Translations under genes and position numbers: made by a program
The notes under the pieces: model-generated
Databases searched by the model: none
Told to the model about the DNA's origin: nothing
Seen by the model: the letters and a program-made list of their open reading frames with translations, nothing else
Shown here: one piece after another, positions 1,608 to 55,249 of the stretch
How the letters are laid out: each line of letters begins with the position of its first letter
Position numbering within the stretch: position 1 is the stretch's first letter
IMG/VR virus record: IMGVR_UViG_3300020152_000027
Coordinates: 1-55,773 of that record
Strand: one strand, 5' to 3'
DNA: 55,773 nt
Origin: a virus

Positions 1608-1859
1608 TTATCCGCAGTTGGCTTGGTGTCTCGTACCCTCGATTGCAAAACACGACTCGCACCGCATCGCCTCAACCCGCTCCTTCAAAGCGGCCACGGC
1701 GTAAGACTTGATACAGGCAAACTCGGCAATATTTGACTGGCCGTCGAGTGATGCCCAGTAGCCACGCCCGCAGCGCATGACCTGAATGATGTAGCCGTCA
1801 GCGACGATCGTCTCGTCCGTCTCCGTGGCGGGCGCGGTGGATGGGGTGGATGGTGACAT
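1608..1859 (-). CDS. Hypothetical Cys-containing protein, first gene of the leftward early operon
   Basis: 83 aa with a disordered Ser/Thr/Pro/Ala start, a middle that may be a small beta domain (GYIIQVMRCGRGYWASLDGQ) and a C-terminal CESC...HQANC metal-site-like pattern. The start at 1859 has AAGGAG upstream. It is the first gene after the operator-bearing promoter at 1893-1921. Function unknown. Confidence 0.65.
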   Translation of the reverse strand: MSPSTPSTAPATETDETIVADGYIIQVMRCGRGYWASLDGQSNIAEFACIKSYAVAALKERVEAMRCESCFAIEGTRHQANCG

Positions 1860-1884: not shown

Positions 1885-1921
1885 TCTAGAGGATTCTAGA
1901 ATAATCTAGATAAGAAGTCAA
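1885..1921 (-). promoter_or_regulatory. Leftward early promoter with triple TCTAGA operator
   Basis: On the minus strand a -35 TTGACT (1921-1916), a 17-bp spacer and a -10 TAGAAT (1898-1893) are seen. Three TCTAGA boxes at 1885, 1895 and 1905 are exactly 10 bp apart and cover the spacer, the -10 and the start region. The same arrangement, including a 19-bp identical core, occurs at 4139-4175. Repeats in phase with one helical turn suit an oligomerising ribbon-helix-helix repressor. Confidence 0.8.
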
Positions 1922-1948
1922 GAGAGTTCTTGAAAATTATTTCAAACG

Positions 1949-1980
1949 CAAAAACGCCCGACCACGTTAATGATCGGGCG
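1949..1980 (-). terminator. Intrinsic terminator, leftward
   Basis: Read leftward, a stem of CGCCCGA pairs with TCGGGCG around a 12-base loop and is followed by a T-run (TTTTTGCGTTT). It closes the transcript of the genes at 2007-2994, just before the operator region. Confidence 0.85.
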
Positions 1981-2006
1981 TCCGACGGGCTTTCTATTAA
2001 AGGGCT

Positions 2007-2597
2007 TTAGGCGGGAACTAGCAGGCGGTCAATGTAACGTTGCGCCGCTTTGATGTCGGAGACGATGGGGTCTTTTCGCGCGCGCTTCCTTAACTTATCG
2101 GCCAGCCAGCGCAGCCGTCTTACTAGAAACAAGAGGATCGGCCTGAGCCGCCGCTTGTGCCTAACAGCTAACCGCCACCATACGCTGTAGTTAAAGATGA
2201 TGTAATCGAGGGATTGGCTGGTCTTACTGAGTACATCCTTCGTTCCTTGAGTCCACGACTCCCGCTCTATGTTTAAGTCGCTACCCTCCCCCTCTTCCAT
2301 GCTGTTCAGGAAGGCTTGACGGAGCGCGGCACTAATCGCCGTGTACTCATCAGGGCGTCGCATAATGGCGGTCGTGAGATGATAGACCCTGCGAAACGTC
2401 TGCGAGCGCACGTCTATCTCGCCGCTAACGGCAAGCCGCATTAAATCACAGCGGGCATCTCCAAAATTGGCTTGCGTTCGGAAGACGCGGATTTTATGAA
2501 CGATGTTCCGCCGATCCCGGTACGCGAGGGCGGTCAAGACAAAATTGCGTACAGTCCAGAGGACGGCACAGACGACGACGAAAGCTAGAAAACTCAT
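2007..2597 (-). CDS. Membrane-anchored hypothetical protein
   Basis: The ATG at 2597 (MSFLAFVVVCAVLWTVRNF) is preceded by GGAAGTG and gives 196 aa. Residues about 2-25 form one hydrophobic segment, followed by a long, very basic helical part (several RR/KR pairs). It therefore looks like an inner-membrane protein with a cytoplasmic helical body. It overlaps nothing and follows the gene at 2602-2994 closely, so the two are probably co-transcribed between the promoter near 3050 and the terminator at 1949. The family is not recognised. A location beside control genes would suit a lysogenic or exclusion function, which is inference. Confidence 0.6.
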   Translation of the reverse strand: MSFLAFVVVCAVLWTVRNFVLTALAYRDRRNIVHKIRVFRTQANFGDARCDLMRLAVSGEIDVRSQTFRRVYHLTTAIMRRPDEYTAISAALRQAFLNSMEEGEGSDLNIERESWTQGTKDVLSKTSQSLDYIIFNYSVWWRLAVRHKRRLRPILLFLVRRLRWLADKLRKRARKDPIVSDIKAAQRYIDRLLVPA

Positions 2598-2601
2598 GGT
2601 G

Positions 2602-2994
2602 TCACTTCCGTTCGTTAGATTTCTTTCGAGGAGACTTTGTTGCCTCACCTTCTAAGGCTCGGCGGGCAGTAGGGGCGTCGGGGAACTCGTTTTTCAAAAC
2701 GATGCGGTCTACTTCTTCGGGACTTAGCCCACACTTATCTTTCAGGAACAGCGCGCGCCACATCCTATTTTCTTCCGCCAGACGCTGGATGCTTCTTTCC
2801 TTCTCGTCTAACGCAGCATTAGCATCCCGATCTTTCCTGCGATCATTGTAACGCTTAAGTGCCCCGCTGGCAATTACCAGAAGAACGGCAACCGCGAGGG
2901 TTCCAGCTACACCTAAAGTGCCTATGAGCGTGTTCCAGAGGGCGGTAAAAGCCTTGACGAACTCCGTCGCCGCTTCCTGAATTATAAATGCCAT
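2602..2994 (-). CDS. Single-pass membrane protein with coiled coil
   Basis: 130 aa. A hydrophobic segment at about residues 20-45 (TLIGTLGVAGTLAVAVLLVI) is followed by a charged coiled-coil-like stretch (about 50-80) and a lysine-rich tail. This layout occurs in holin-accessory, exclusion and signalling proteins; nothing specific is recognised. It precedes another membrane-anchored protein by four bases, so the two may act together at the inner membrane. Confidence 0.6.
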   Translation of the reverse strand: MAFIIQEAATEFVKAFTALWNTLIGTLGVAGTLAVAVLLVIASGALKRYNDRRKDRDANAALDEKERSIQRLAEENRMWRALFLKDKCGLSPEEVDRIVLKNEFPDAPTARRALEGEATKSPRKKSNERK

Positions 2995-3026
2995 AAGAGG
3001 CCGGGCATGGGTGAGATGGCTTTCGG

Positions 3027-3075
3027 TTCTAGAAATTGCCTGCGGATATTATCAGTCATGCCAATTTATTAGCAA
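3027..3075 (-). promoter_or_regulatory. Probable leftward promoter with a single TTCTAGAA box
   Basis: Minus strand: TTGCTA (3075-3070), 18-bp spacer and TAATAT (3051-3046) with an upstream TG, then ATTTCTAGAA (3036-3027) in the early transcribed region. The same ten bases lie just before the start of the gene at 3741-4109, so this may be a second operator class with the TCTAGA core. Confidence 0.5.
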
Positions 3076-3081
3076 GCAAAT

Positions 3082-3108
3082 AAAAAACCCCGCCGGGAGT
3101 GCGGGGGC
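3082..3108 (-). terminator. Intrinsic terminator, leftward
   Basis: On the minus strand a GC-rich hairpin (CCCCCGC / GCGGGG type) is followed by TTTTTTATTT. It ends the transcript of the gene at 3145-3657. Confidence 0.9.
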
Positions 3109-3144
3109 AAGTTCTTTGTCGAGAGTTTTAAAGAATTAAGATTG

Positions 3145-3657
3145 TCAGCCAGCGATATTTCTCAGTGCTTTCGACTTCTTAAACCTGTGCGAGACGCCGG
3201 GTTCTTTAATGAGCGGGTATCTTTCATCGTCAGCAAGTTGTAACGAGTCGTCCCACCACACCCACCGACCGGCAACGTCGGCGCGCGGATAGAACTCAAG
3301 TAGCTTTCCGGCGATGTGTAATTTAGACAATTGAAACTCGCCTGACTCTGCTTCAGGATGAAAACTGTCAAGTCTGACCATGCCGGGACTTAGGCTTGTT
3401 AGCAAAGCAATTAGCAACTCTCCGTCGGGATACTCTATTCCGTAAACGCCGCATCCAACGAAGCCGCATTTGAGGAAAATTAGGATCGATCCGACTGAGA
3501 ATCTTGCGTAACCTTCATCTTCAATTTCAAGAAAAAAGCAGGTGTCCGTAGGAGAGTAACCTACAGGGACTCTAAGGTGTTGAACGTCGGGGGGGCTTCT
3601 TCGGGCGATTCGGCTGACACTACCCATATACAATGAGAGGCCAAAGCTGTACAGCAA
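3145..3657 (-). CDS. Hypothetical protein with possible hydrophobic core
   Basis: 170 aa from a TTG at 3657, or 160 aa from an ATG at 3627; no clear ribosome site supports either, so the start is open. The protein is mixed alpha/beta with several cysteines (FLKCGFVGCGVYGIEY) and a hydrophobic middle. It is monocistronic, bounded by its own terminator at 3082. Its place between the RHH-type gene and membrane genes suggests expression in the prophage state, but this is inference. Not recognised. Confidence 0.5.
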   Translation of the reverse strand: MLYSFGLSLYMGSVSRIARRSPPDVQHLRVPVGYSPTDTCFFLEIEDEGYARFSVGSILIFLKCGFVGCGVYGIEYPDGELLIALLTSLSPGMVRLDSFHPEAESGEFQLSKLHIAGKLLEFYPRADVAGRWVWWDDSLQLADDERYPLIKEPGVSHRFKKSKALRNIAG

Positions 3658-3740
3658 GGCGGTGAGTGGAATGCGAGTAACAAGCGTCGCGCCTTTTCCT
3701 TTCTTAGTTTCATACTAAAGCGTTTTTGGTACGTTTTATT

Positions 3741-4109
3741 TTAGCTTGCAGTTTTGCCTTTTTTCGGTTTGTAGGCTTTGCGCCTCTGCATAGGCATCAT
3801 TTGCTCAGGCTCAGATGGTACTTCCCTGATATTGGTTGGTAGTGAGGCGTCCATTTGTTGAAAGTTTAATTGCCGCTCTGCCCGCGCCCGCTCTCGTTGG
3901 CGTGCCCTGTATTCAATCTCGTCAAGTTGAGCATCTTCCCAGAACACGGCATATCTATCGAGTATCTCCACAGCTACTTCTGTCCGGTTCTTTTTGTCGC
4001 CTTTAAAGCGTTCCGCAAGCCGCTCCAATCGCTCCACAAGTTCTTTGGGGGCTTGGACGTTGAATTGCAATTTTCCTTTGTTTTCGCTCACAACAATCAT
4101 AGTAACCAT
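3741..4109 (-). CDS. Possible ribbon-helix-helix DNA-binding protein
   Basis: 122 aa from the ATG at 4109, with GGAG about ten bases upstream. Residues about 1-60 have a short strand (GKLQFNVQAP) followed by two helices (KELVERLERLAERF, NRTEVAVEILDRYAV), the order of a ribbon-helix-helix domain. The C-terminal half is Arg/Gln-rich with a basic tail (RRKAYKPKKGK). It is divergent from the small RHH gene at 4194, with the triple-TCTAGA operator between them, so it may be a second repressor or an antirepressor. A TTTCTAGAAA box sits directly before its start codon. Confidence 0.55.
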   Translation of the reverse strand: MVTMIVVSENKGKLQFNVQAPKELVERLERLAERFKGDKKNRTEVAVEILDRYAVFWEDAQLDEIEYRARQRERARAERQLNFQQMDASLPTNIREVPSEPEQMMPMQRRKAYKPKKGKTAS

Positions 4110-4129
4110 TTCTAGAAATCTCCACAACT

Positions 4130-4175
4130 ATTTTATCCTTGACAGCCCCGCTAGAATCTTCTAGAATCCTCTAGA
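4130..4175. promoter_or_regulatory. Divergent promoter region with triple CTAGA operator
   Basis: Rightward: TTGACA (4139-4144), a 17-bp spacer and TAGAAT (4162-4167). Boxes GCTAGA (4150), TCTAGA (4160) and TCTAGA (4170) are 10 bp apart and cover the spacer and the -10. Leftward: a TAAAAT (4135-4130) could serve the gene at 4109. The operator is the mirror copy of that at 1885-1910; the 19-bp core TCTAGAATCCTCTAGACAG is shared. Confidence 0.8.
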
Positions 4176-4193
4176 CAGATTGGAGGAAAGCAG

Positions 4194-4373
4194 ATGCCGA
4201 AGTTAAAAAAGGGGCAAGTCGGGCGCTACGTTGTTTGGCCTAAAGACCTCGACAAGTGGCTACAGGACAAAGCCAAAGAGCATGGCCTTAACTCACCCCA
4301 AAAGTTTGCGGTGATGTCTCTTATGGGCGACATGCAGCGCACTGACGACGTTCCACAAAAACGCGCCTCATAA
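4194..4373 (+). CDS. 59-aa Arc/CopG-like ribbon-helix-helix repressor candidate
   Basis: A short gene with a strong ribosome site (GGAGGAAAGC). The protein is very basic at its N-terminus, then has a probable strand (GRYVVWP) and two helices (KDLDKWLQDKAKEHGL, SPQKFAVMSLMGDM), the fold order of Arc/CopG/ParG-type dimers. Such proteins bind short DNA repeats cooperatively. It is the only gene directly after the promoter at 4139-4167, whose three CTAGA boxes recur at the leftward early promoter. The simplest reading is an autoregulated repressor of both promoters. The fold is inferred from pattern, not from a search. Confidence 0.65.
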   Translation: MPKLKKGQVGRYVVWPKDLDKWLQDKAKEHGLNSPQKFAVMSLMGDMQRTDDVPQKRAS

Positions 4374-4500: not shown

Positions 4501-4992
4501 ATGAGACCACAAAGCATCCCGCCGCCGTCACAAATCGAAGTTGAGGCCGAGCTACGCGACCAATTCAAGCACGGCGACATCACGGCTGTCTCGATCTGGC
4601 TCGGCCACCGAGACCACACGACGCTCTCTAGGGAGTTGAACTCCGAAGAACCGGCAGAGTCGTCCGCTTACGCTTTCCTCCGCTTTCTGGATGCCTGCTA
4701 CAAGACGCGGTTTGAGCTAGGCACAGCCGTATGGGCTTTGGTCGAACGCTTCAACGCCCGCTACCAGCAGAAGGCCGTAGAGACGCAGACGTTCAGCCCC
4801 GTTGCGGAAACATTCCACACCTTAAACATCGCTGAATTAAACGATCTGCCTGTGAGGGATCGCCTACGCGTGGCGCAGCAGCTTTACTCCGATCTAGGGA
4901 AGTACATCGCGGGTTTGTATCACTTGGACATGGACGCCGACGAAGAAGAGACGCAGTATCCCCGACCCGCCAAAACGGCGGGCGGGAGATAG
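4501..4992 (+). CDS. Possible CII/Cro-like regulator
   Basis: 163 aa from the ATG at 4501 (a TTG at 4471 is possible). Residues about 20-60 (ELRDQFKHGDITAVSIWLGH, then DHTTLSRELNSEEP) look like a helix-turn-helix in which the second helix reads a target, as in phage CII-type activators. The rest is helical. It follows the RHH gene and precedes the divergent peptide/TPR pair, a position typical of lysis-lysogeny regulators. Assignment is by pattern only. Confidence 0.45.
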   Translation: MRPQSIPPPSQIEVEAELRDQFKHGDITAVSIWLGHRDHTTLSRELNSEEPAESSAYAFLRFLDACYKTRFELGTAVWALVERFNARYQQKAVETQTFSPVAETFHTLNIAELNDLPVRDRLRVAQQLYSDLGKYIAGLYHLDMDADEEETQYPRPAKTAGGR

Positions 4993-7192: not shown

Positions 7193-7305
7193 AAACGATT
7201 GTGAGCGTGTTGGCCTATCACTTGAGCAAGGGACTGGAGGCCGCATTCGACAGTGTGGAGATGAAGCTGCGGCTACGCGCACGGCGTAAGGAGGCGAGAC
7301 GGTGA
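7186..7305 (+). CDS. 39-aa basic mini-protein
   Basis: A short reading frame with GGAGGGG upstream. It overlaps the preceding stop and, as GTGA, the next start. The product is amphipathic with an Arg/Lys-rich end (RLRARRKEARR). Coupling on both sides supports translation; function unknown. Confidence 0.5.
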   Translation: MLKTIVSVLAYHLSKGLEAAFDSVEMKLRLRARRKEARR

Positions 7306-7826
7306 ACTGGCGAGAATCACACCGGGCAGACAGGCGGGCTAATCGGCTTGCTAAGAGGCACTACACCTGCCAGACGCCCGCAAGCAACCAGTTCGTCAAG
7401 CCGGGGGGATGTTTAGTGCTGGTGACGAAGAACGCGGACGCTCTGTGGGTGACGAGCAGGCAGAAAGCGGAGTTCACCGATCACGCATGGGCGGGAGCAT
7501 GGGAATGCAGTTTATTCAGGAACGAGGGCAGGCTGCTTTCTTCAACTCTAATCTCAGAGGCAGTGGCAGCGACGGTCGCTTACTACGGCGCGCCTCCCCC
7601 GCTAGGCATGATCACGATGATCGATCCGCGCAAGGTAACAGGGTTTCTCAGGCGCACGGCGAAGGGCGTTGAAATGTCGTGGGGTTATTCATTCCAGCGC
7701 GCCGGGTTTGAGTTCGCGGGATGGACTAAAAGCGGGAAGTACGTCTTGCAGCTGCTACCGGAGAAGATGCCAGCAGCTTCCCCGCATGTCGTCCTTCAAG
7801 CTTCCATGTTCTCGGAGGCGGCATAA
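7302..7826 (+). CDS. GNAT-like hypothetical phage protein
   Basis: 174 aa from a GTG with GGAGG upstream. The stretches KRHYTCQTPASNQFVKPGG, CLVLVTKNADALWVTS, AWAGAWECSLFRNEG and LGMITMIDPRKV match a family I know from phages and actinobacterial genomes, annotated as hypothetical and sometimes as acetyltransferase-like. FRNEG followed by LLSSTLISEAVAA resembles the acetyl-CoA-binding turn and helix of GNAT folds. Substrate unknown. It is expressed early with the replication genes, so modification of a host factor is one possible role. Confidence 0.55.
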   Translation: MNWRESHRADRRANRLAKRHYTCQTPASNQFVKPGGCLVLVTKNADALWVTSRQKAEFTDHAWAGAWECSLFRNEGRLLSSTLISEAVAATVAYYGAPPPLGMITMIDPRKVTGFLRRTAKGVEMSWGYSFQRAGFEFAGWTKSGKYVLQLLPEKMPAASPHVVLQASMFSEAA

Positions 7827-8902: not shown

Positions 8903-9928
8903 ATGAGCAAGATCATTCCTAACAGCTTCCAGACCCCGAACGCCTACATAGACGAGTTTATGGCGTTCCTCACGCCTGAAGAGAATGTAGTACTGACCTA
9001 CACGGCGCGGCGCATCTTCGGCTTTCATAAGGATGAGGATCGTATCAGCCTGTCACAGTACGCGGAGGGCATCAAGGCGCACGACGGCTCTATTTTGGAC
9101 TACGGGACAGGGTTAAATAAGAAAGCCGTCCGGCGCGCTCTGGATGCCCTGATCGCCTTCGGACTCATTATCGAAGTCGAGCCTTACGTTATAGAGACAA
9201 GCACCCCGGCCTGCTACGCGCTCCAACTCGACCCCGAAAAGATAGACTCCAGCGGTCTCCACGCGCGCCGTGCTGCTCGCGTGGCGATGGACTCACGACG
9301 GACGGCCAAAGGTAGAAACGTCGCCACACTTAACCGCGCCGAACGGTCAGACCCTAGTGTGTCCGATAACACACCCCCTGTTCTATCCCATACAACAGCC
9401 CCCCCTGTGTTATCGGACACTACACCCCCTGTTCTATCGGATAGCATACCCCCTGTTGTATCCGACACCACTACAAAAGCCAGAGAGAAACAAAGTAGAA
9501 AACCAGAAGAACCTTTAGGCGAGTCGGCTCACGCCTCCCCGCAAAGCCCCTCGCCAAAATCGAGGACTTCAAAGTCTCCACCCGACCCCCGTTCTCAACA
9601 CCCTGCAATCCAACTCGTCAAGAAATTGATGAGCCGTTACCCAGACAAGATTTGGTACGACGACATCATCGAGATCGTCGGAGAAGAACCAGACGTTGGA
9701 AAACTGACAGCCTGTCGCAAGGATTGGATCGGTAGGGGTTGGAACTCAAATTCGCTCGATTGGATACCGTGGTACAGAGACGGCATCCCCGAAAGGAACG
9801 GCAATGGAAAACAGAGCAACGGCAGCGGATCACATGGAAAATCTGGCGAGTCATCGGAAGTTTCTGACGCTACTCGAAAAGTGTCTGGACGCTTCCAACC
9901 TACCGAAACAGTCGGAAGTTCCCTATGA
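8903..9928 (+). CDS. Lambda O-like replication initiator
   Basis: 341 aa. Residues about 10-110 form a winged-helix domain (TPEENVVLTYTARRIFGFHK, KAVRRALDALIAFGLIIEVE), as in phage O/DnaD-type initiators. Residues about 150-190 are a low-complexity linker of PPVLSDTT-like repeats, and the DNA coding for it is a set of iterons (9359-9470). The C-terminal part (about 240-300, QLVKKLMSRYPDKIWYDDII) would recruit the helicase loader encoded next door. The last 125 bases overlap the DnaC-like gene. Order, size and internal iterons match lambda O. The domain call is from pattern. Confidence 0.75.
   Translation: MSKIIPNSFQTPNAYIDEFMAFLTPEENVVLTYTARRIFGFHKDEDRISLSQYAEGIKAHDGSILDYGTGLNKKAVRRALDALIAFGLIIEVEPYVIETSTPACYALQLDPEKIDSSGLHARRAARVAMDSRRTAKGRNVATLNRAERSDPSVSDNTPPVLSHTTAPPVLSDTTPPVLSDSIPPVVSDTTTKAREKQSRKPEEPLGESAHASPQSPSPKSRTSKSPPDPRSQHPAIQLVKKLMSRYPDKIWYDDIIEIVGEEPDVGKLTACRKDWIGRGWNSNSLDWIPWYRDGIPERNGNGKQSNGSGSHGKSGESSEVSDATRKVSGRFQPTETVGSSL
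9359..9470 (+). repeat. Iterons inside the O-like gene, candidate replication origin
   Basis: Four copies of a CCCCCTGTNNTATC unit begin at 9374, 9401, 9425 and 9449 (spacing 27, 24, 24 bp). A perfect 15-bp inverted repeat, GTGTCCGATAACACA (9359-9373) and its complement (9406-9420), overlaps the first two. They encode the repeated linker of the initiator. Lambda ori has the same layout: iterons in the O gene bound by O. Confidence 0.75.
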
Positions 9929-10658
9929 CTGCGACGACTGCTCGGATATGGGCGTCGTGTTCGGGAAGCATGAAGTGGACGGCAGACAGTACACCCATGC
10001 CAAGCCCTGCGTCTGCCGTCGGCGCAAGGCCGTCGAGTATTTGATGGAGACCATTGACCAGAGATTCAAACGGTTCGCGCCTCCCCGGCTGGCCGACCTC
10101 TCTCCCCGATATGACTGCTTCCGCGATGACCCGGCAGGCTCGAAATGGGTAGGCGACGCACAGGCTGAAGCGATTGCCTTGATGTGCGCGAATCCCTTCA
10201 GTTCTTTCGTGTTCGGGGGAGACAACGACACCGGGAAAACTCACATGGCCTATTCGCTGCTGGTCAATGCGTGTGAGACGGGGCGCACCTGCGTCCATAT
10301 CAAGCTGAGAGACCTTTTGGACGAGTGGGGCAAGGAAGCCAGAGGGGAGGCGGGGAAGGACGGTAAGGCGTTCCGTTCTACCGTTAGGGCAAGCGACCTC
10401 GCGCGAGGTCAATGGTCAATCCTGCTCGACGAGTTCGACAAGACGGGCGTGACGGAGTTCAGGAGCGCGGAACTCTATAACTTCCTTGATGAAATCTGGC
10501 GCAAAGGCCATCAACTGATCGTGACGGTCAACTTGCGTAAAGATCGGGTGATCGAGAAGTGGTCTCGGATTGATGAGACCTACGGAGCGTCCATCGCCAA
10601 AAGGCTGTACTCGGAAGCTAGAGGCGTCGGCCTGTTCGTTGACGAGATTAAGAAATGA
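9804..10658 (+). CDS. DnaC-like replicative helicase loader (lambda P role)
   Basis: 284 aa. A cysteine cluster (residues 43, 46, 69, 71) suggests a zinc site in the N-terminal helicase-binding part. An AAA+ core follows: Walker A GGDNDTGKT (about 138-146), Walker B ILLDE (about 206-210) and a sensor-like TVNLRK. Loaders of this type place the host DnaB helicase on the origin melted by the initiator. The ATG at 9804 has AAGGA six bases upstream and overlaps the O-like gene by 125 bases, so the pair is tightly co-expressed. The Walker A carries Asn-Asp where many loaders have Gly/Pro, a minor variation. Confidence 0.85.
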   Translation: MENRATAADHMENLASHRKFLTLLEKCLDASNLPKQSEVPYDCDDCSDMGVVFGKHEVDGRQYTHAKPCVCRRRKAVEYLMETIDQRFKRFAPPRLADLSPRYDCFRDDPAGSKWVGDAQAEAIALMCANPFSSFVFGGDNDTGKTHMAYSLLVNACETGRTCVHIKLRDLLDEWGKEARGEAGKDGKAFRSTVRASDLARGQWSILLDEFDKTGVTEFRSAELYNFLDEIWRKGHQLIVTVNLRKDRVIEKWSRIDETYGASIAKRLYSEARGVGLFVDEIKK

Positions 10659-19054: not shown

Positions 19055-19438
19055 ATGGTAGATGAGCGGGACAGCCTGTGGCAGAAGGTGACGGAACTGC
19101 AATCCTCCGTTCGTCTGCTGGAGACAAAAGTTGACGGAGAAGTGAAAAGCCTTGCCCCCCGTGATTGGGTGCATCAGGTAATGCAACCGATTCAACAATC
19201 CATTACCAGAATGGAGGCATCCGTCTCGCAACTGACCGAAGACGCAAAAGACCTTTTCAACGCCCACAGCACGATGCTGAAAGAGAAGGCCGACCGGGAA
19301 AAGCAGGAGTGGGCGGAGAAGACGCCTTTAGGGCTGATTAAGAAGTACGGCCCGGTAATCGGTTTCATGGCGGGCATCGTCGCGCTGTATCGCGCGCTCG
19401 GGTCGCTATTTGAGGTGTGGCTGCAACAGTACAAGTAA
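19055..19438 (+). CDS. XhlA-like coiled-coil/membrane protein
   Basis: 127 aa. Residues 1-80 are a heptad-type coiled coil (SLWQKVTELQSSVRLLETKV), and the C-terminal 30 contain one membrane segment (GPVIGFMAGIVALYRALGSL). That order is typical of haemolysin XhlA-like holin-associated proteins of phages. The stop overlaps the start of the response-regulator gene (TAATG). Confidence 0.55.
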   Translation: MVDERDSLWQKVTELQSSVRLLETKVDGEVKSLAPRDWVHQVMQPIQQSITRMEASVSQLTEDAKDLFNAHSTMLKEKADREKQEWAEKTPLGLIKKYGPVIGFMAGIVALYRALGSLFEVWLQQYK

Positions 19439-19824
19439 TGGCGAAAATACTAATCGCAGAGGACAGGGACGATGCAGCCGAACTCCTGCGCCAGTTGTTG
19501 ACGCGACAAGGCCACGGGGTAGACGTAACAGATGATGGACAAGAGGCGGTAGCGCGACATGCAGAAGGTGGCTATCAACTCGTCATACTCGACGCGGCGA
19601 TGCCGAATGTTGATGGCTTTACCGCTGCGGGAGAGATCAGAAAGGTAGACGCGGAGACGCCCATTCTGATGATCACCGCGCACACCGATCCGATCACAAG
19701 GGCGCACGCGAGACGAGTAGAAATTGACCACCTTATGTTTAAGCCCTATGAACCGGCGGACGTGATAGAGGCGGTCGAGTATTTGTTGAAGCACGGCAGG
19801 AAGTGGTTGCCGCCGCGCCCCTGA
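19438..19824 (+). CDS. CheY-like response regulator receiver
   Basis: 128 aa, a single receiver domain with no output domain. The acidic pair is E8/D9, the phospho-acceptor is D52 in LVILDAAMPNVDG, followed by T80 (MITAHT) and K102 (MFKPYEP). All key residues of the family are kept, so it should take phosphate from a histidine kinase. No kinase is encoded in the window, so a host kinase would be the donor. It is coupled (TAATG) to the XhlA-like gene and lies just upstream of the terminase genes, an odd place for a signalling protein. Very secure as a family; the role in phage biology is unknown. Confidence 0.9.
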   Translation: MAKILIAEDRDDAAELLRQLLTRQGHGVDVTDDGQEAVARHAEGGYQLVILDAAMPNVDGFTAAGEIRKVDAETPILMITAHTDPITRAHARRVEIDHLMFKPYEPADVIEAVEYLLKHGRKWLPPRP

Positions 19825-19842: not shown

Positions 19843-19866
19843 ATGAAAGGTTTTGAAAGGTTTTGA
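19843..19866 (+). promoter_or_regulatory. Seven-codon leader ORF and decamer repeat before the small terminase
   Basis: A strong ribosome site (AAGGAGAGAGGGG) precedes an ATG at 19843 that reads MKGFERF and stops at 19864-19866. That stop overlaps the TTG start of the small terminase (TTGA). The stretch contains three copies of GAAAGGTTTT/TCT at 19845, 19855 and 19865. Terminase translation probably depends on reinitiation. Confidence 0.6.
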
Positions 19867-20249
19867 AAGGTTCTACGGAAATTCTAGCACCAAAACAGGA
19901 GCGAGCCATTGCCGCGCTCCTGTCAGAGCCGACTATTAGAGAGGCGAGCAAGGCTGCCAAAGTGTCTGAGGTGACCTTGTGGCGATGGCTGCGCGAGGAA
20001 TTATTTCAGACAAGGTATAGGGCAGCGCGACGGGATGCGGTAGAGGCTGCTATAGCCAGTCTACAAGCCAGTAGCTCGGTTGCGGTCAGGGTGCTAATGG
20101 AAATCGCGGAAGATACTCAAGCACCCGGCACGGCAAGGGTGGCCGCTGCGCGAGCTATCCTCGATCAAGCGATTGAAGCTGTGCAAGTCACGGACATGAT
20201 TGAACGTTTAGAGAAGATTGAGGCCATAGTAGCAGGGCAAAATAAATAA
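19863..20249 (+). CDS. Terminase small subunit
   Basis: 128 aa from a TTG at 19863. A helix-turn-helix lies at about residues 24-50 (IREASKAAKVSEVTLWRWLR), then helical oligomerisation segments. Small terminases bind the packaging site on phage DNA and pass it to the large subunit. It overlaps the large-subunit ATG by one base (TAATG). The call is from HTH plus position. Confidence 0.8.
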   Translation: MKGSTEILAPKQERAIAALLSEPTIREASKAAKVSEVTLWRWLREELFQTRYRAARRDAVEAAIASLQASSSVAVRVLMEIAEDTQAPGTARVAAARAILDQAIEAVQVTDMIERLEKIEAIVAGQNK

Positions 20250-37032: not shown

Positions 37033-37716
37033 TCATTGACTCTTTTTGTCTATAGAAAGCTTGAGTAGCTGCGCAGCTTTTGCAGAGTGACGCCCCGCCG
37101 ACCCCCAGATAACATCTAGGATGGCACTTCGCTTGATATACTCCCCGCTCTTAAATTTTGTTATCCCTAAGTTATACCTGCCATTTAAATAGAAGGCGGT
37201 ACTTGATTTGGCCGGAATCCCGTCCCGGTACTGAAGCGACTCACTCCACACCCTTCCCGCAATGGCATAGTCATCTAAGGCGAGTACGATTGAATGTTTA
37301 ATCTCCCCTTCAGGGACATAAATAAGAGCCTCGTCAACTTCTGTTTTCGCTTGAACCAAGAGAGTGCCGTATTGTGTATACGTTATTCCTACCTCAATCG
37401 CTCCGGCCAGCCTGGACAAAGATTTAAGAGCCTGAAAAGCTCGCTCACCTGCTTCACTTAGAGCATTGTTTTTCGTTGGCGTGTCGTTGGCAAATTCAAT
37501 GCGGGCTATGGAGTCAATTTTTATCGTCGCTTCAACCACGCCTTGCTGTATTTTTATGGAGTCTGCGGTTGCACCCAAGAATACTCCTTTAATCGGATCA
37601 CCTTCCTTCAAATTCACCTGAACTTGATACTTGTGCGATACGTCTTGACCATAGGCACTAGCAGCCAGAACGCACAACAATATGGCAAGTAAAAAGGCGT
37701 GAGAGGTTTTCATCAT
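37033..37716 (-). CDS. Secreted cargo protein (moron)
   Basis: 227 aa from the ATG at 37716, AAAGGA upstream. A clear signal peptide (MMKTSHAFLLAILLCVLAAS, cleavage near AYGQ). A small beta domain follows (YQVQVNLKEGDPIKGVFLGA), then a helical, partly TPR-like region. It is on the opposite strand to the late genes, with its own upstream region, as expected of lysogenic conversion cargo. It should be exported to the periplasm or surface. Not recognised beyond this. Confidence 0.65.
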   Translation of the reverse strand: MMKTSHAFLLAILLCVLAASAYGQDVSHKYQVQVNLKEGDPIKGVFLGATADSIKIQQGVVEATIKIDSIARIEFANDTPTKNNALSEAGERAFQALKSLSRLAGAIEVGITYTQYGTLLVQAKTEVDEALIYVPEGEIKHSIVLALDDYAIAGRVWSESLQYRDGIPAKSSTAFYLNGRYNLGITKFKSGEYIKRSAILDVIWGSAGRHSAKAAQLLKLSIDKKSQ

Positions 37717-37741
37717 TCTATCCTTTCGTGATGAAGAATTG

Positions 37742-37855
37742 TGGTAATATGTTCGCTGTCTAGAGCGTGAGCATATCACGCATGCTAATAATTTAGAGCG
37801 ACCTTGATCGCCCCAAAGCCGGACTCGATCCGTTGACTTTGGGGCGATTGTGTTT
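37742..37855 (+). ncRNA. Small RNA candidate C
   Basis: TG-G-TAATAT (-10 at 37745-37750) is followed by a GCGTGA-GCATA-TCACGC hairpin (37765-37781) and a 12-bp perfect stem ATCGCCCCAAAG / CTTTGGGGCGAT (37807-37848) with a weakly T-rich end. The RNA runs rightward between two leftward genes, so it has no open frame of its own and would be antisense to the leader of the gene at 37716. Confidence 0.5.
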
Positions 37856-37865
37856 GTGCATGAAC

Positions 37866-38303
37866 TCAATGAGATTGGATCGCAGGACGATCCTTTACCA
37901 CCTCAACCGTTTTGTTCTTTATGTTTTTATCTTCAAGGGGGCGCATTTCGCGCATTTGAAAAGTGGCCTGTTCAGGCGGCATTAAGTGGATTGATTGGTT
38001 GAAACCAAAGCCTGCCGGCACTTGGCTAACGCGCACATAGTAAGTTTTCCCCGCTTCAACTTTGAGCAGGGTTTCTGATTGCTTTTGGCGCAGCCGTAGG
38101 CCGTATTCACCTGATGGCAGGCGAAGGGCGATAAAGCTATCTTCGGGCATTTCAAGTAATGGCTTGTCGTTTAACTTCACTTTGACTTTGCGGCTGTCAA
38201 GTTTAGACGCTTCCTCAACCCGATAGATGTAGACAGTCGCTTGATCGGTAGTCTGCGGCACATGACTTAGAGCGAATAGCAGGAACACTAAAGCGAGTCG
38301 CAT
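37866..38303 (-). CDS. Secreted DUF2846-like protein (moron)
   Basis: 145 aa, AAAGGAGAGCC before the ATG. A signal peptide (MRLALVFLLFALSHV) precedes a beta domain with TVYIYRVEE, VKVKLNDKPLLEMPEDSF, EYGLRLRQKQ and KTYYVRVSQ, matching DUF2846. These are envelope proteins of Gram-negative bacteria with unknown function. Encoded leftward next to another secreted protein inside the rightward tail module, it is a likely lysogenic conversion gene. Confidence 0.75.
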   Translation of the reverse strand: MRLALVFLLFALSHVPQTTDQATVYIYRVEEASKLDSRKVKVKLNDKPLLEMPEDSFIALRLPSGEYGLRLRQKQSETLLKVEAGKTYYVRVSQVPAGFGFNQSIHLMPPEQATFQMREMRPLEDKNIKNKTVEVVKDRPAIQSH

Positions 38304-42003: not shown

Positions 42004-43866
42004 ATGGCTACAATCACGATTGCAAGCAGCACGGTAGAACCGGCATGGCATGGCGGAACGCCGCCGCGGTTACGAATCTTTGCAAACATCCCCTTTATGA
42101 CCGCGGACGGCTCGCCCGTCCAACAAGGCAGCCCATCGTCCGGCCTTGCATACCTTGATGCTGCGTGCACGCTCGACGAGGAGGGGCGGGTCGTCGTGCC
42201 GGAGATCGAGCTACCGTCTACCACGGATTCTACTGCTCCGAATGCACGTCCATACACCGCCTATCTCTACAGTCTAGGTGCAGATCAGAGCGGGCAGTAT
42301 TCAGAGTTCGCCACTTTCGGCGCGGGCTTCGCGCTGGATCATACCGATCTGACTCAGACGTGGGAAGACATCCGGGCGTTCAATGACGGTACGCTCCCGA
42401 TGAACGCGACCGACTACAGCATGTCCGGCGATCTGGATATAGGCGGTGGCCTAGACGTAGGCGGATCGGGCACGTTCGGAGGGGCATTGACCGCCGCCAG
42501 CCTCCACATCACCGGCGGGGCGCAGATAGACGGTGCGATTACCTCCAATGACACCCTTCTGGTAAACGACGACGCCCAGATTAACGGGATCGTGACCGCG
42601 CAAGCCTTCGTCGGCAACGGAGCGGGGATCACAGGATTAACCGGAGCTACCGGGGGAGTCGCCAACACCGGCTCTACTACCATCGGTGCTGACACGAATG
42701 CGGACGGGATCGGCGTCATTGACTTCCAGATCGGCCTCGCAACCAAAGCCAGACTGAACAACGACGGTACGTTCGAGGCCATCGGCGGGCTGAACGTGTC
42801 GGGCGGGGCGATGGCCTTGAATGGCGCGTATGGCGCGTTCACTGCCAACAGTTCGCACTTACAGACCTTCAATCAGGTCAATACCGGGCTTGGCCTGACG
42901 TATCCGGTTTATGCCGGGTTCATCTTCGACACGCCATCAAACTCCGGCGCGCAGTTCGGGATCGTCTCGAAGGTCAACACTGGCACAAGCACGCAAATCA
43001 ACCGTCCGGCTGCGCATCAGGCGTTGTACAAGGTGGCGATCTACGGCGAGTGTGTGACGATTCCCGGCAACAACTCGGATAGCCTGTGCTATGGGGGCAA
43101 CGTCTTGGCCGAGGTCAACACAGGTCATCTAGCTTTCAGTTGGGGATTTGAAATCGATCATAACAACAGCATGATCCTCAAGCCCGATTCGTATGCCAGC
43201 CAGACGGTTGATCCCACGTTTACGGGCGCACTTCACGTCGCAACAGGGGGTATCTATCCAACGCAAGTTGGTATCCAGACCTACGCGCTCGCCGGTTCGG
43301 AGTTCAATTGGGCTATTGACATCAACCGCGCGTCCTATTCCAGATTCGGGATCGCGGTCGGTGCAACCAACATCTTCAACACGACGACGGCAGCAGGCGG
43401 GCAGGCAGCAGAGTTAGCTATCGGCCACGTCAACACGCGCACAGCCCTCCTGATCCAAGAGAACGGGGCGACGGGTGCGTTAATCAAACTGCGCAACGCA
43501 GCCAACAACGGAGACTGGGGGCGCGTCGAGCGTGACGGCACATTCCTCAGCATCACGTCGTCAGGTGGTTTCACGGTTCTCAAGGATGAAGCACCGGGAG
43601 CGACGCGAGGTTTCCAGATGACGGCCACGGACACGGCCAATCTGGTAGGCGAGGACTTGCTTTTCAATTCAATCAGGGACGGGGTACGCACCGAGAGGTT
43701 GCGTCTCTACAACAACGATCAAGCCATCGTGCTTGGAGCGGCGGTCGTGCTGGGCTGGGGTTCGGGCGCACCGGCAGCGGCCTACCCGGACGGCTCGGTG
43801 TACTTCCGTACAGGTGCTGGGGGAATGTTCTACGTTCGACAATCGGGAGTTTGGACGGCTAAGTAA
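42004..43866 (+). CDS. Second tail fibre / receptor-binding protein
   Basis: 620 aa. A beta-type N-terminal head (PRLRIFANIPFMTADGSPVQ), then a collagen/trimeric-shaft-like part with GDLDIGGGLDVGGSGTFGGA, and a long C-terminal region in which FRTGAGGMFYVRQSGVW is the end. Gly/Asn/Thr-rich shafts of this kind form trimers. The N-terminal part would attach to the baseplate. It is the last structural gene. Confidence 0.7.
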   Translation: MATITIASSTVEPAWHGGTPPRLRIFANIPFMTADGSPVQQGSPSSGLAYLDAACTLDEEGRVVVPEIELPSTTDSTAPNARPYTAYLYSLGADQSGQYSEFATFGAGFALDHTDLTQTWEDIRAFNDGTLPMNATDYSMSGDLDIGGGLDVGGSGTFGGALTAASLHITGGAQIDGAITSNDTLLVNDDAQINGIVTAQAFVGNGAGITGLTGATGGVANTGSTTIGADTNADGIGVIDFQIGLATKARLNNDGTFEAIGGLNVSGGAMALNGAYGAFTANSSHLQTFNQVNTGLGLTYPVYAGFIFDTPSNSGAQFGIVSKVNTGTSTQINRPAAHQALYKVAIYGECVTIPGNNSDSLCYGGNVLAEVNTGHLAFSWGFEIDHNNSMILKPDSYASQTVDPTFTGALHVATGGIYPTQVGIQTYALAGSEFNWAIDINRASYSRFGIAVGATNIFNTTTAAGGQAAELAIGHVNTRTALLIQENGATGALIKLRNAANNGDWGRVERDGTFLSITSSGGFTVLKDEAPGATRGFQMTATDTANLVGEDLLFNSIRDGVRTERLRLYNNDQAIVLGAAVVLGWGSGAPAAAYPDGSVYFRTGAGGMFYVRQSGVWTAK

Positions 43867-43884
43867 TTTACTAAGGAGCGGATA

Positions 43885-44289
43885 ATGTCAAAAGTTACGA
43901 GGATTAGAGAGAAGCAGAAGGTGGGACAGCTTGAATTGACGGTGCAGCAGTTGGTTAATTCCAAACAGGCGTTATCGTCGCTGGTAAGTCAGCCCCTAGT
44001 TTTTGGGACATCGTTCAAACTGGCGAAAGTGGTGAAGGCGGTCAATGAGGAGCTGCAGACCTATGACGATCTGCGGCGGAAGCTTTGCGAGAAGTACGGA
44101 ACACTGACAGAGGACGAGTCGCAATACGACATCCCGGCGAACAAGCAGAAGGAGTTTAACGCGGAGTTCGCAGAGTTGCTTGCTACGCCGATCCAATTAC
44201 CGGGGTCGCCCCTGCGTCCGGCTGAGTTCGGGCGTGTGGAGATGAGCGCGGGCGATCTGCTTGCTCTGGAATGGCTGATAGTGGAGTGA
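43885..44289 (+). CDS. Hypothetical protein, DUF1617-like
   Basis: 134 aa, AAGGAGCGGATA upstream. A helical N-terminus (LELTVQQLVNSKQALSSLVS) and FKLAKVVKAVNEELQTYDDL recall DUF1617 proteins of phages. Lies at the end of the late region and before the convergent operon. Function unknown. Confidence 0.55.
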   Translation: MSKVTRIREKQKVGQLELTVQQLVNSKQALSSLVSQPLVFGTSFKLAKVVKAVNEELQTYDDLRRKLCEKYGTLTEDESQYDIPANKQKEFNAEFAELLATPIQLPGSPLRPAEFGRVEMSAGDLLALEWLIVE

Positions 44290-47455: not shown

Positions 47456-47638
47456 ATGATACTGACCGTGCAAGAGGTAGCAAACCGTTTGGGCGTGACG
47501 CGAGAGCGCGTCTATAAGCTCATCACCGATAAGCGGCTGCCAGCTACAAAGTTCGGGCGCGACTGGCAGATACAAGAGAAGCATTTAAAACTCGTCCAAA
47601 ATCGTAGAGTCGGCAGACCCCGTAAAGAGGCCGCATAA
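47456..47638 (+). CDS. Excisionase/MerR-like HTH protein
   Basis: 60 aa. TVQEVANRLGVTRERVYKLI followed by DKRLPATKFGRDWQIQEKHL is the complete DNA-binding (HTH_17/Xis-like) domain, with a basic tail (RRVGRPRKEA). Proteins like this regulate or recombine mobile elements; here no recombinase is present, so control of the ParA cassette through the inverted operator just upstream is more likely. Probably leaderless. ParA starts two bases after it. Confidence 0.8.
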   Translation: MILTVQEVANRLGVTRERVYKLITDKRLPATKFGRDWQIQEKHLKLVQNRRVGRPRKEAA

Positions 47639-47639: not shown

Positions 47640-48440
47640 ATGAAGACTATCGCCATCGCAAATCAGAAGGGCGGCGTAGGTAAAACGACTACCGCTGTTA
47701 ATCTTGCCGCTGCCCTACAGTCGCAAGGCCGGAGGGTGCTGGTGCTCGACCTAGACCCGCAGGCAACCGCCACCCGCTTCCTGCTCGACCGCTACGGGGC
47801 TGACGGGGAGACGATGTATGAAGTCCTCTTGAACAGTAAACCTCTCTCCGAAGTCATCCAGAAATCCCCCGCCGGTATCCCCATCGCGCCCAGCAACTTC
47901 AATCTGGCGTCGCTCGACCTCGACCTGAACAACGCCCTGAACCGCGAGCACCGCCTGACCGCCGCGCTGGAAGAGATTCCCGGCTACGACTACACGCTGA
48001 TTGACTGCCCGACGTTCTTAGGCTTCGCCAACATCAACGCCTTTGCCGCATCCCAAAGCGTGCTGATACCGATTGAATGCGCGCCGGAATCATGGGAAGC
48101 AGTTCCCTACTTGATGCAGACCTTACGCAAGATCATCACGCAGCTTAAACACCCGTTGAAGGTGTTCGCGCTGCCGACGTTCTTAGAGCGCACTAACATC
48201 GCCAGAGACATCCACGAAGAAATCAAAGAGCATTTTGAGGCGTACACCCTCAGTCCGATCAACAAGAACGTGAAACTGAAAGAGGCTTTCAACGCGAGAA
48301 AGCCGATCACTCAATACGACCCGGCGGCGTCGGGTGCTATGGACTACCTGAGAGCGGCTAAGGAGATCATTAGTGAACACGAAACCGAAAAGGAAATACG
48401 GCGAAGTAAAGAAGGGCGCGGAAACGACGCTCGGAACTAA
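47640..48440 (+). CDS. parA: ParA-type partition ATPase
   Basis: 266 aa. Deviant Walker A KGGVGKTT (10-17), Walker A-prime DLDPQ (about 37-41) and Walker B LIDCPTF are those of ParA/Soj-type ATPases, which place plasmid copies in dividing cells by moving on the nucleoid. There is no N-terminal HTH extension, so it resembles type Ib/chromosomal-style ParA; the separate HTH gene upstream may supply DNA binding. No ParB homologue is recognised; the winged-helix protein encoded next, overlapping by 68 bases, is the candidate partner. This gene is the main argument for plasmid maintenance. Confidence 0.9.
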   Translation: MKTIAIANQKGGVGKTTTAVNLAAALQSQGRRVLVLDLDPQATATRFLLDRYGADGETMYEVLLNSKPLSEVIQKSPAGIPIAPSNFNLASLDLDLNNALNREHRLTAALEEIPGYDYTLIDCPTFLGFANINAFAASQSVLIPIECAPESWEAVPYLMQTLRKIITQLKHPLKVFALPTFLERTNIARDIHEEIKEHFEAYTLSPINKNVKLKEAFNARKPITQYDPAASGAMDYLRAAKEIISEHETEKEIRRSKEGRGNDARN

Positions 48441-49446
48441 TCAGTCGGTATTCGATAAGTTCCTGCCCTCCACAGATACGACCGTACCTAGCACCCCTCC
48501 TAGCCCCCGTCCTAGTACCCCTGCTAGGCAGCCTAGCCCCCGCGACGTAGCTCCGAACCGCGACTTTCAGAAGGTGGCGAACTCAATCACGCGAGATGCC
48601 ATCCCTTCGGGGATGTTCAACGGCAAGGCCAAGCAGTTGTATGACTGCCTCTACAGCCTGACGAGAGGCGCGATAGTTCCCTCCATGACCGTCCGTATCA
48701 GCCGCGCCGCCTTGATGAAGAAATCAGGCATCGGCGCAAAGGTCACGCTCGAACAGAATCTAAGACGCCTCGCGCTCTCCGGCCTCGTCTCCATTAAAAC
48801 CATCGGAGGCGTACAGGGCGGCAACGAGTACACAGTGAGATTGCCGGAAGAAGCCATACCTAGTACCCCTCCTAGTACGGGTACTAGCCTACCTAGCCCT
48901 CCTAGCAGTGGCGAGAATGTAGGAGTCCTAGCCCCCCTAGAAAGTAGCCCTCCTAGCCACGGTTTAAGTGCTGATTATCAAACAACTTCTGACGATCCCA
49001 AGACTCTTATTAAAGACAGAGAAAGAATTGATGATGAGGCTGCGCCGCTTCGAACGAAAGCCTTCGAAAAGTTCGAAGTTTTCACAAACGCAATAGAATC
49101 ACTAGATGTAGTTGTCAAAGAGCTAACAGGCAAGGGAATCAGTAAATCAGACGCTTCGAAGTGGTCTGAATTGTTCGAACTTCTCGCCACGGAACTCAAG
49201 ATCGCCGCTGCTCGCACAACCGTTTCCAGCGTGCCCGCATTTCTCACGGAACACTTGCGTAGAAGGCTCTTTAAACGCTCGGCAGACGAGATGCGAGTAG
49301 AGAGCAGGGAAGCGGTAAATTCGCCCGCTGCACAGCCCGTAGACGCAAGCAAATGCCTCGACTGTGGAAATACCGGCTGGTGGTATCCTGAAGGGCCGGA
49401 GAAGGGTGTGGCCCGCTGCGCGCACGCAAGGTTAGGGGCCGAATAA
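48373..49446 (+). CDS. Winged-helix replication or partition protein with repeat linkers
   Basis: 357 aa from a GTG with AAGGAG upstream, inside the end of parA. Residues about 39-56 and 163-195 are Pro/Ser/Thr repeats (PSTPPSPRPSTPAR type) coded by CCTAG-rich DNA. Between them (about 62-160) is a winged-helix domain (NRDFQKVANSITRDAIPSGM, LMKKSGIGAKVTLEQNLRRL, GGNEYTVRLPEE). The C-terminus has a zinc-site-like CLDCGNTGWWYPEG...CAH. I recall similar proteins beside ParA in acidobacterial mobile elements, often with varied repeat linkers, but cannot verify this here. It is the likely initiator or centromere-binding protein of the plasmid state. Confidence 0.65.
   Translation: MNTKPKRKYGEVKKGAETTLGTNQSVFDKFLPSTDTTVPSTPPSPRPSTPARQPSPRDVAPNRDFQKVANSITRDAIPSGMFNGKAKQLYDCLYSLTRGAIVPSMTVRISRAALMKKSGIGAKVTLEQNLRRLALSGLVSIKTIGGVQGGNEYTVRLPEEAIPSTPPSTGTSLPSPPSSGENVGVLAPLESSPPSHGLSADYQTTSDDPKTLIKDRERIDDEAAPLRTKAFEKFEVFTNAIESLDVVVKELTGKGISKSDASKWSELFELLATELKIAAARTTVSSVPAFLTEHLRRRLFKRSADEMRVESREAVNSPAAQPVDASKCLDCGNTGWWYPEGPEKGVARCAHARLGAE
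48487..48536 (+). repeat. CCTAG iterons, cluster 1
   Basis: CCTAG at 48487, 48499, 48511 and 48532 and GCTAG at 48523; the first four lie exactly 12 bp apart. They encode the first PSTP-type linker. CTAG is normally one of the rarest four-base words in bacterial DNA. Confidence 0.7.
48859..48956 (+). repeat. CCTAG iterons, cluster 2
   Basis: CCTAG (once ACTAG) at 48859, 48871, 48883, 48892, 48901, 48927, 48936 and 48952, spaced mostly by 9 or 12 bp. They code for the second linker of the same protein. Density of CTAG here far exceeds that of the surrounding gene. Confidence 0.7.
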
Positions 49447-51486: not shown

Positions 51487-52146
51487 TTACTTTTCCTCCA
51501 CGGCCTCAACTGAAGCGGCGGCAAATAAATCTTTCATGCGTTGGAACGTCTTAGGGGCTGCAAGACCGTTTGACCAATCCCAGCCGACTTCACCGATAAA
51601 CAACTCTTTAAGTTCATCCCAGTGGTCAATGATCGCAGCCCACTTCGGGGAGAGAGCGCGGATGCGGGGAAACGCATCTCTGACTTCCGGCACTTCGTCA
51701 ACCAGCAACAGGCATCTATTAAAGTCAGAGGGGTCGGATGGTGCGCTTGCATACCTCCGGCTCACACCTAGAGCGGTAAAGGCCATCGTCTCTGACGAAA
51801 CGCCGGGCTGACCTTGAGCGAGCCAGTCGAGAATCTTGTCTCGCTTCTCGACCTCTGCGACTAACCAATCAACGTCTTGAGGGGCGGACTCGATGAACTT
51901 GAAGTGCGGCGTCTCGTTTAAAGGCGTGCCGCCGATGTCCGTCGGGGAAGATGACAGGATGACTAGAAAATAGTTCACGACGCGCGCGATTCTATCGCCT
52001 ACGCCCCCGTCTCGATTGTCGGGGTCGCTTAACGCCCAGTGTCGAGTGCGCCCTGATAGGTAGTCACGCCCCCACTTCCAGCGTTTCAGCCCCAGCCCCA
52101 GCCCCGCCCGCCGCTCTTTAATCTCTGCTAATAGTTTGTTGTCCAT
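51487..52146 (-). CDS. Hypothetical protein
   Basis: 219 aa from the ATG at 52146, AGAGGAAAGC upstream. Mixed alpha/beta; stretches such as RIARVVNYFLVILSSSPTD and DVDWLVAEVEKRDKILDWLA are helical, and the end has WDELKELFIGEVGWDWSNG. No recognised motif. It lies between the radical SAM and DUF4326 genes, tightly spaced on both sides. Confidence 0.55.
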   Translation of the reverse strand: MDNKLLAEIKERRAGLGLGLKRWKWGRDYLSGRTRHWALSDPDNRDGGVGDRIARVVNYFLVILSSSPTDIGGTPLNETPHFKFIESAPQDVDWLVAEVEKRDKILDWLAQGQPGVSSETMAFTALGVSRRYASAPSDPSDFNRCLLLVDEVPEVRDAFPRIRALSPKWAAIIDHWDELKELFIGEVGWDWSNGLAAPKTFQRMKDLFAAASVEAVEEK

Positions 52147-52160
52147 AGATATGCTTTCCT

Positions 52161-53021
52161 CTAACTGGAAGGGAACTCGTCCCATGTGCGACCCGAGCCT
52201 TTTACCTGTCGGCGGTATTTGACGTTGACATAATCTGTGGGTAGGTATTGCTGCAAATCTTCCTTGATGTAGTGATCGTTTCCGGTCTCTGCGAGCAGTT
52301 CGATAACCTGCTTGGTGAACGCCTTCCAGTCCGTGCGCTTCGTCAGCGTCGAGTAGTTGATACGCCCGATCTTGTACAGGTCAACGAAGGTGTGAGTCTG
52401 GCGGATGATTTCGAGCGTCACGTCAGGGTCAATCACAGGTTCAAGGCTGACCCATGTATACAGCCCGGCTTCGTGGAAACGTTTCAACGTCTCAATGCGG
52501 TCTGCCGGGGAAGCCGCGCCCGCCTCCATCCTCATTGATGTCGCTTCATCCAAGAGCGTCAGGCTTGAGGCGAAAGCATCGCGGTCAGGGCGAAACAGAT
52601 CGAGGTCGCGAAGCGCGCGGCTCCCGCCTTTGGTGAGCGTGCAGAAGGCCATCCCGTGCTGGATGAGTGTTTGAATCGTCTCGCGCGTCAAGGACGTGTC
52701 GAACGGGTGATACGGATCGGTGGTGAAACAGAGCAAGACCTGTTCGGTAATGCCGAGTGATTGGTATTTGCGTGCATCTTTTGGAAGTTGTTCGCGGTAG
52801 ATCGCCCGATCTTTCGCGCCTGCGTCGAACTCTGCGCGGCTCATCTTCAAGACGCTCGGAACATAGCAGTAAAAACACTTATGGCCGCACCCTCGGTACA
52901 TGTTGGTCGCAAGTCGCGCATACTCTCCGGCCTGACCAGCGGGCGCGTAGATAATCGAACAGTTTTTGACGGAGTACCCGTCAGCGTTGAGCGTTGGTTT
53001 CATTGCAATTTTATTTGGCAT
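52161..53021 (-). CDS. Radical SAM protein, spore photoproduct lyase-like
   Basis: 286 aa from the ATG at 53021 (AAGGA eight bases upstream). YRGCGHKCFYCYVP has Cys45, Cys49 and Cys52, the CX3CX2C signature for a 4Fe-4S cluster that splits S-adenosylmethionine into a radical. The context GCxHxCxYCYVP and the later FTTDPYHPFD and WVSLEPVID match the SplB-type (COG1533) branch. Known relatives repair thymine dimers or act on unknown substrates. A phage copy in an early operon could modify or repair DNA; the substrate is unknown. Confidence 0.85.
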   Translation of the reverse strand: MPNKIAMKPTLNADGYSVKNCSIIYAPAGQAGEYARLATNMYRGCGHKCFYCYVPSVLKMSRAEFDAGAKDRAIYREQLPKDARKYQSLGITEQVLLCFTTDPYHPFDTSLTRETIQTLIQHGMAFCTLTKGGSRALRDLDLFRPDRDAFASSLTLLDEATSMRMEAGAASPADRIETLKRFHEAGLYTWVSLEPVIDPDVTLEIIRQTHTFVDLYKIGRINYSTLTKRTDWKAFTKQVIELLAETGNDHYIKEDLQQYLPTDYVNVKYRRQVKGSGRTWDEFPSS

Positions 53022-53090
53022 GTGCGTTTTCCTTAAATTACTTTCCTCTGTCATAGGGAATTTAGGTTGATGAAATTGCACCCTCTTGAG

Positions 53091-53663: not shown

Positions 53664-53736
53664 TACTTTTGCTTTCTCACCCTCTACGCCGATACCCGCC
53701 CCTCTCCCGCAGATAGCTAATGAGGGGCGGACAGAT

Positions 53737-53976: not shown

Positions 53977-53986
53977 TTGAAACTCT

Positions 53987-55239: not shown

Positions 55240-55249
55240 TTCCTTCTCC

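Follow-up and report, generated by a model that had tools for sequence, protein, structure and literature searches.

The locus considered here raises the question of what three evenly spaced TCTAGA boxes over a leftward promoter of a viral genome may control, and which protein may read them. The genome, record IMGVR_UViG_3300020152_000027, is siphovirus-like and 55.8 kb long; the whole stretch of DNA analysed, called the window in the following, comprises 55,773 nt. Its gene content includes TerL, an SPP1-type portal, an HK97-type capsid, O-like and DnaC-like replication genes and ParA, whereas integrase, CII-like and N-like proteins were not identified in this genome, and Rfam and tRNA scans of the sequence were empty. 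The ends of the record overlap by 8 bp, GTCCGAAA, and one ORF runs over the left edge, both of which fit a circular map, albeit without proving it. The product of the ParA gene (47640-48440) has no N-terminal HTH. The presence of ParA suggests plasmid-like lysogeny, and the best reading of the phage is that it is temperate and probably plasmid-like.

Two further features of the genome are recorded here as observations in their own right. Downstream of parA, a 357-aa ORF contains a dense CTAG array (48488-48953), with 14 CTAG in the ORF, whereas synonymous resampling leads to an expectation of 2.6 and never exceeded 10 in 3000 rounds; the spacing is mostly 9 or 12 bp, and the array lies in proline-serine-rich stretches. 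It is possibly a DNA-level iteron or centromere hidden in coding sequence, or a simple repeat expansion. A gene situated shortly before that of the terminase (19438-19824) has a product that begins MAKILIAEDRDDAAELLRQLL and resembles a receiver domain of response regulators (Pfam Response_reg, 4e-25 in a pooled scan), which is unusual for a phage at this place.

Two mirrored arrays of TCTAGA boxes

The left, OL-like array (1885-1910) consists of TCTAGA boxes at 1885, 1895 and 1905, exactly 10 bp, or one helical turn, apart. It lies over a PL-like promoter on the minus strand, TTGACT-N17-TAGAAT (1921-1893), a 10/12 match to sigma-70, which confirms the arrangement described in the first-pass annotation. 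The mirror copy reported there is real as well and covers TTGACA-N17-TAGAAT on the plus strand (4139-4167; 11/12), but the identical core is 20 bp long (1882-1901 versus 4159-4178) and not 19 bp as had been stated. Taken at full length, the mirror copy spans 44 nt (4138-4181) and is 80% complementary to 1879-1922. The right, OR-like array (4150-4175) is built of GCTAGA at 4150 and TCTAGA at 4160 and 4170, its outer box differing from TCTAGA by one mismatch. The PR-like promoter is the best sigma-70 match of the window, and the PL-like promoter is among the five that reach at least 10/12. On both promoters, one box is located in the spacer, one overlaps the -10 element and one is found at the expected start site. 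The promoters face outward and carry three sites each, as in a lambda-type arrangement, if the outer right box is counted with its mismatch. Since the boxes occupy the same positions on both outward-facing promoters, control of the two by one regulator, which had been proposed from the start, is the natural reading.

The box arrays are not due to chance. For the window, ~2e-7 occurrences of an exact TCTAGA triplet at 10/10 spacing would be expected, and 30 first-order simulated sequences contained zero exact 6-mer triplets of period 8-12, whatever the hexamer. The window itself has only one other such triplet, a GAAAGGTTTT tandem repeat of three units at 19844-19869. Among all 64 hexamer palindromes, tandem pairs at spacing 8-12 are formed by TCTAGA (3 pairs) and TTCGAA (1 pair) only. 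A genome-wide scan for the box, with up to three mismatches allowed, yielded no further composite site above background, and the equal triplets at unrelated sites that had been named as an argument against an operator occur nowhere else in the genome. In 2.9 million viral contigs, exact TCTAGA triplets were found in five stretches, mostly simple period-10 repeats; at the three of these loci that were inspected, no RHH gene was recognised among the nearby ORFs.

By count, bare TCTAGA is not enriched (10 versus 9.0 expected), and single boxes consequently mean little. Its distribution sets it apart from all other hexamer palindromes, as TCTAGA alone is concentrated between genes: nine of the ten sites were scored as intergenic, compared with 12% of bases, although eight of ten is the better count because the site at 55124 lies within a plausible 54-aa gene, and binomial p-values are only indicative given the clustering of the sites. 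The TTCTAGAA box occurs four times, as opposed to 0.56 times expected, and all four sites fall within 1894-4166, in promoter or leader DNA. Two leftward genes (37033-38303), inserted among the late genes in opposite orientation to these, come with a TCTAGA just upstream, at 37759; this moron-like pair includes at least one gene with a signal-peptide-like start.

Genes around the arrays and candidate binders

We take the order of the region to correspond to that of the lambda immunity region; the comparison is positional and draws on what is generally known of lambda. The DNA between the arrays carries leftward genes and two terminators. Closest to the right array is the gene of a 122-aa RHH candidate at the cI position (3741-4109, minus strand), which has a weak leftward promoter and carries a single TTCTAGAA box (4110-4117) between its ribosome-binding site and its ATG. 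Downstream of it, a minus-strand gene (3145-3657) encodes a protein of up to 170 aa without a family match and is followed by a terminator-like hairpin (3088-3106, minus strand). Another single TTCTAGAA box (3027-3034) is positioned ~14 nt downstream of the -10 element of a leftward promoter-like site (3075-3048). Two putative membrane proteins of 130 aa (2602-2994, minus strand; KD19 2.51) and 196 aa (2007-2597, minus strand; KD19 2.18) occupy rex-like positions, and a strong terminator-like hairpin of 14 pairs (1952-1983, minus strand), just upstream of the leftward promoter, closes the central leftward genes.

On the right, the PR-like promoter is followed by a gene in the cro position that encodes a 59-aa RHH-like protein (4194-4373, plus strand; GGAGG before the ATG) and by the gene of a 163-aa protein (4501-4992, plus strand), which NCBIfam and Pfam gave no name, so that its cII assignment is a purely positional one. 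Further downstream of this promoter are the genes of an O-like replication protein (8903-9928, plus strand) and a DnaC-like helicase loader (9804-10658, plus strand). On the left, the leftward operon begins with an 83-aa gene (1608-1859, minus strand), which has AAGGAG ~10 nt before its ATG. The suggestion that this operon spans the record ends, from 1859 to 49752, is plausible in view of the GTCCGAAA overlap, the edge-crossing ORF and the finding of no strong leftward terminator within 1-1859 or 52000-55773. The left operator had been regarded as the main switch of this operon; it is half of a pair flanking an immunity-like region rather than the switch of one operon alone. The leftward operon also contains the gene of a radical SAM protein (52161-53081; E 1e-13), with a weak match to the phage DNA repair photolyase family. 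The neighbouring product (53091-53765) is related, at up to 57% identity, to hypothetical proteins of Pseudomonas, Caulobacter and even microvirus records, one relative being annotated as adenine methyltransferase.

The Arc repressor of phage P22 uses Gln9, Asn11 and Arg13 to read TAGA, its contacts extending over six adjacent base pairs (PMC12645479). When compared with the Arc sequence taken from the P22 record, the 122-aa protein aligns as QFNVQAPKE with QFNLRWPRE, its Q15 and N17 being matched to Q9 and N11 of Arc; the strand Q-F-N-V-Q holds two of the three Arc contact residues (Gln-x-Asn-x-Arg). The similarity has a shuffle p of ~0.003 for the whole protein and 0.0015 for the first 60 residues, and it ranks the protein first of 98 gene products. 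Its RHH_1 match, the sole one across 16 records, scores 13.7 bits and is below the curated cut-off of 20.5 (E 0.11 in another scan). The Pfam profile of Arc (PF03869) gave no match at E<=1, and the 122-aa protein is not a member of that family. The 59-aa protein resembles Arc in the first helix only (WPREV..AEENG; p ~0.03), and its strand is devoid of the Q9 and N11 residues. Both structure models display a strand-helix-helix order at low confidence (pLDDT 62 for the 122-aa and 67 for the 59-aa protein). The 59-aa model retrieves mostly RHH chains (CopG, Arc, AmrZ, CdbA and NikR; Z 2-3.7); with the 122-aa model, no RHH structures were retrieved, and Foldseek gave nothing useful. As judged from sequences and models, both proteins may be of the RHH type. 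Because the 122-aa protein keeps the QFN reading strand, and Arc reads TAGA, it is the likelier predicted reader of TCTAGA. The 59-aa protein, which the first-pass annotation had put forward as the binder, is retained as a candidate second regulator. Palindromic boxes of 6 bp that recur at every helical turn would suit one RHH dimer each.

A possible early switch and its rivals

It is on balance probable that the two arrays belong to a lambda-shaped early/immunity switch of a temperate phage, run by RHH repressors with predicted binding to the boxes. In such a switch, the two triple-box sites would serve as left and right operators, each 6-bp box being occupied by a dimer of a single RHH repressor, for which the 122-aa protein is the most likely candidate. 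Dimers on adjacent boxes would be separated by one turn, on the same face of the DNA, and could bind cooperatively, and occupation of the spacer, -10 and start-site boxes would exclude RNA polymerase from PL and PR. PL would drive the leftward operon from 1859; PR would drive the 59-aa gene and then transcription towards the O/DnaC-like replication genes. The TTCTAGAA boxes over the start of the 122-aa gene and at 3027 may provide negative feedback on the central leftward genes, and the 59-aa RHH-like protein, as the first PR product, may act as a second regulator resembling Cro or Arc.

Other binders and other functions have to be weighed against this switch. The main binder could be the 59-aa protein; as an Arc-like autorepressor expressed from PR, it would turn off both early promoters once the cell is infected and would not be part of a lysogeny switch. 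Its size is Arc-like, its gene comes first on PR, like arc in P22, whose Arc operator sits between -35 and -10, and the helix A match as well as the RHH-dominated fold list of its model point the same way; nevertheless, this assignment is unlikely, given the missing Q9/N11 pair, the Arc similarity of p ~0.03 and the single box that covers the beginning of the 122-aa gene, for which autoregulation of that gene is a simpler explanation than binding of the 59-aa protein. Binding by an HTH-type regulator of the host or the phage, which would read pairs of boxes as one 16-bp palindrome, could be imagined because TCTAGA-N4-TCTAGA is also a near-palindrome and an HTH_17 protein is encoded at 47489. 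Three equal boxes together with isolated single TTCTAGAA boxes are better suited to one dimer per box, and the capsid relatives do not have any TTCTAGAA, which makes this idea a long shot.

Alternatively, the arrays might be centromeres that also control promoters, bound by the 122-aa protein as a ParB/Omega-like partner of the ParA at 47640-48440. That ParA has no N-terminal HTH is in keeping with this view, and so is the RHH protein Omega, which binds parS arrays overlapping promoters (PMC9499535). We consider partition decidedly improbable nonetheless: the RHH gene lies outside the parA operon, ~11 kb away on the circle, three boxes are spaced at 10 bp, whereas ParA activation by Omega needs at least four contiguous repeats, and it is the separate CTAG-rich array that adjoins parA. 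RHH antitoxins commonly repress their own operon, and the 122-aa gene is adjacent to and co-directional with the gene at 3145-3657, so that the two might form an antitoxin-toxin pair, the boxes being its autoregulatory operator and reused at 1885. However, the 3145-3657 product matches no toxin family, and the strongest operators belong to other transcription units; a toxin-antitoxin origin of the boxes is accordingly very hard to credit.

The RHH repressor switch, which remains the preferred reading, was also viewed against related genomes. No homologues of the 122-aa protein were found in viral contigs, genome contigs, phages or plasmids, and no relatives of the early genes at 7302-7826, 190-864 and 9804-10658. 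For the 59-aa protein, a match of 16 residues (63%) to locus L009 was rejected, as no plausible gene for such a protein covers it. With no homologue of either regulator, comparison lends no support to the RHH reading, and with no close immunity relative there is no covariation of box and protein to lean on. Five terminase relatives have little in common with the genome beyond the terminase and are therefore uninformative; in nine phage records, either related or sharing the terminase, TTCTAGAA does not occur.

The search with the capsid returned many relatives, with up to 91% capsid identity. Among the 32 examined, no mismatch-free copy of the paired box occurs (a single relative shows an unrelated match with one mismatch), and both the 122-aa and the 59-aa regulator are absent from all; as several of these records are fragmentary, a missing feature says little about any individual record. 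A CI/Cro-type HTH (HTH_3) scores over threshold in 8 of 15 capsid relatives and not in the present genome, which has only a weak match at 47462-47545; capsid relatives without such a match also exist. No inverted operator pair was found when capsid relatives, G007 and G013 among them, were inspected for the paired layout. Since the relatives share the capsid and have neither the boxes nor the two regulators, the virion genes are shared while the regulatory module differs. Shared virion genes with a different regulatory module are usual for temperate phages of different immunity, and the pattern is as expected of a swappable immunity module. In G013, an HTH gene lies beside a promoter. G007 contains a near-perfect palindrome at 43860-43900 (L112 3860-3900), with two TTCATGAA boxes 8 bp apart between divergent promoters, which adjoins a HigA-like HTH gene.

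Comparison with known systems

In lambda, six operator sites are distributed over two operators with three sites each (PMC10742460). The present region resembles lambda in having (i) two triple-site operators on outward-facing early promoters, (ii) a leftward regulator-type gene between them, that of the 122-aa protein at the cI position with its presumed repressor role, and (iii) a small regulator first on PR, the 59-aa protein at the cro position, the O- and DnaC-like replication genes coming farther along PR. It differs from lambda in its 6-bp palindromes 10 bp apart, compared with 17-bp operators, in the additional box covering the start of the gene for the candidate repressor and in its regulators, which look like RHH proteins, no CI/Cro HTH being over threshold. 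The region is thus not lambda-type in the strict sense, but it appears to work like one.

A more far-reaching version, to be taken only tentatively, is that of a temperate phage-plasmid with a primary lysis-lysogeny switch of lambda geometry and RHH proteins at both the cI and the cro position. Jointly with this all-RHH switch, and at the same somewhat doubtful level, the lambda circuit might have arisen convergently here, or its DNA-binding parts might have been replaced. Should this hold, the lambda geometry, in which a repressor gene is flanked by two triple operators, would be independent of HTH repressors and could also be reached with Arc-fold dimers on 6-bp boxes, offering a clean comparison of how cooperativity and dual operators lead to bistability. 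Triplets of palindromic hexamers at 10 bp on paired early promoters would then be a search signature for switches in phages without a recognisable CI.

The immI region of P22 with Arc and Mnt shares with the present region TAGA subsites in an early promoter between -35 and -10; its RHH repressor and the autoregulation of its first gene have predicted counterparts here. However, immI is a secondary immunity region with one antirepressor promoter, whereas here two distant early promoters share an operator; Arc uses two half-sites ~11 bp apart rather than a series of perfect palindromes, and the sequence similarity to Arc is marginal, the Arc Pfam model being unmatched. Omega of pSM19035, an RHH ParB whose parS arrays overlap promoters, is similar in binding one RHH dimer per short repeat, as predicted here, in arrays that overlap several promoters and in the presence of ParA in the same replicon (PMC9499535). 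Its repeats are seven-bp, non-palindromic and contiguous, in arrays of 7-10 that belong to a dedicated partition system, in contrast to the three spaced palindromes on early phage promoters seen here. An RHH-based primary phage switch of this layout was not found in the literature searched. In filamentous Pf phages, Arc-family proteins have been discussed as possible regulators, and some prophages carry an Arc-type gene that has taken the place of the repressor gene (PMC7549136); the broader notion therefore has some precedent.
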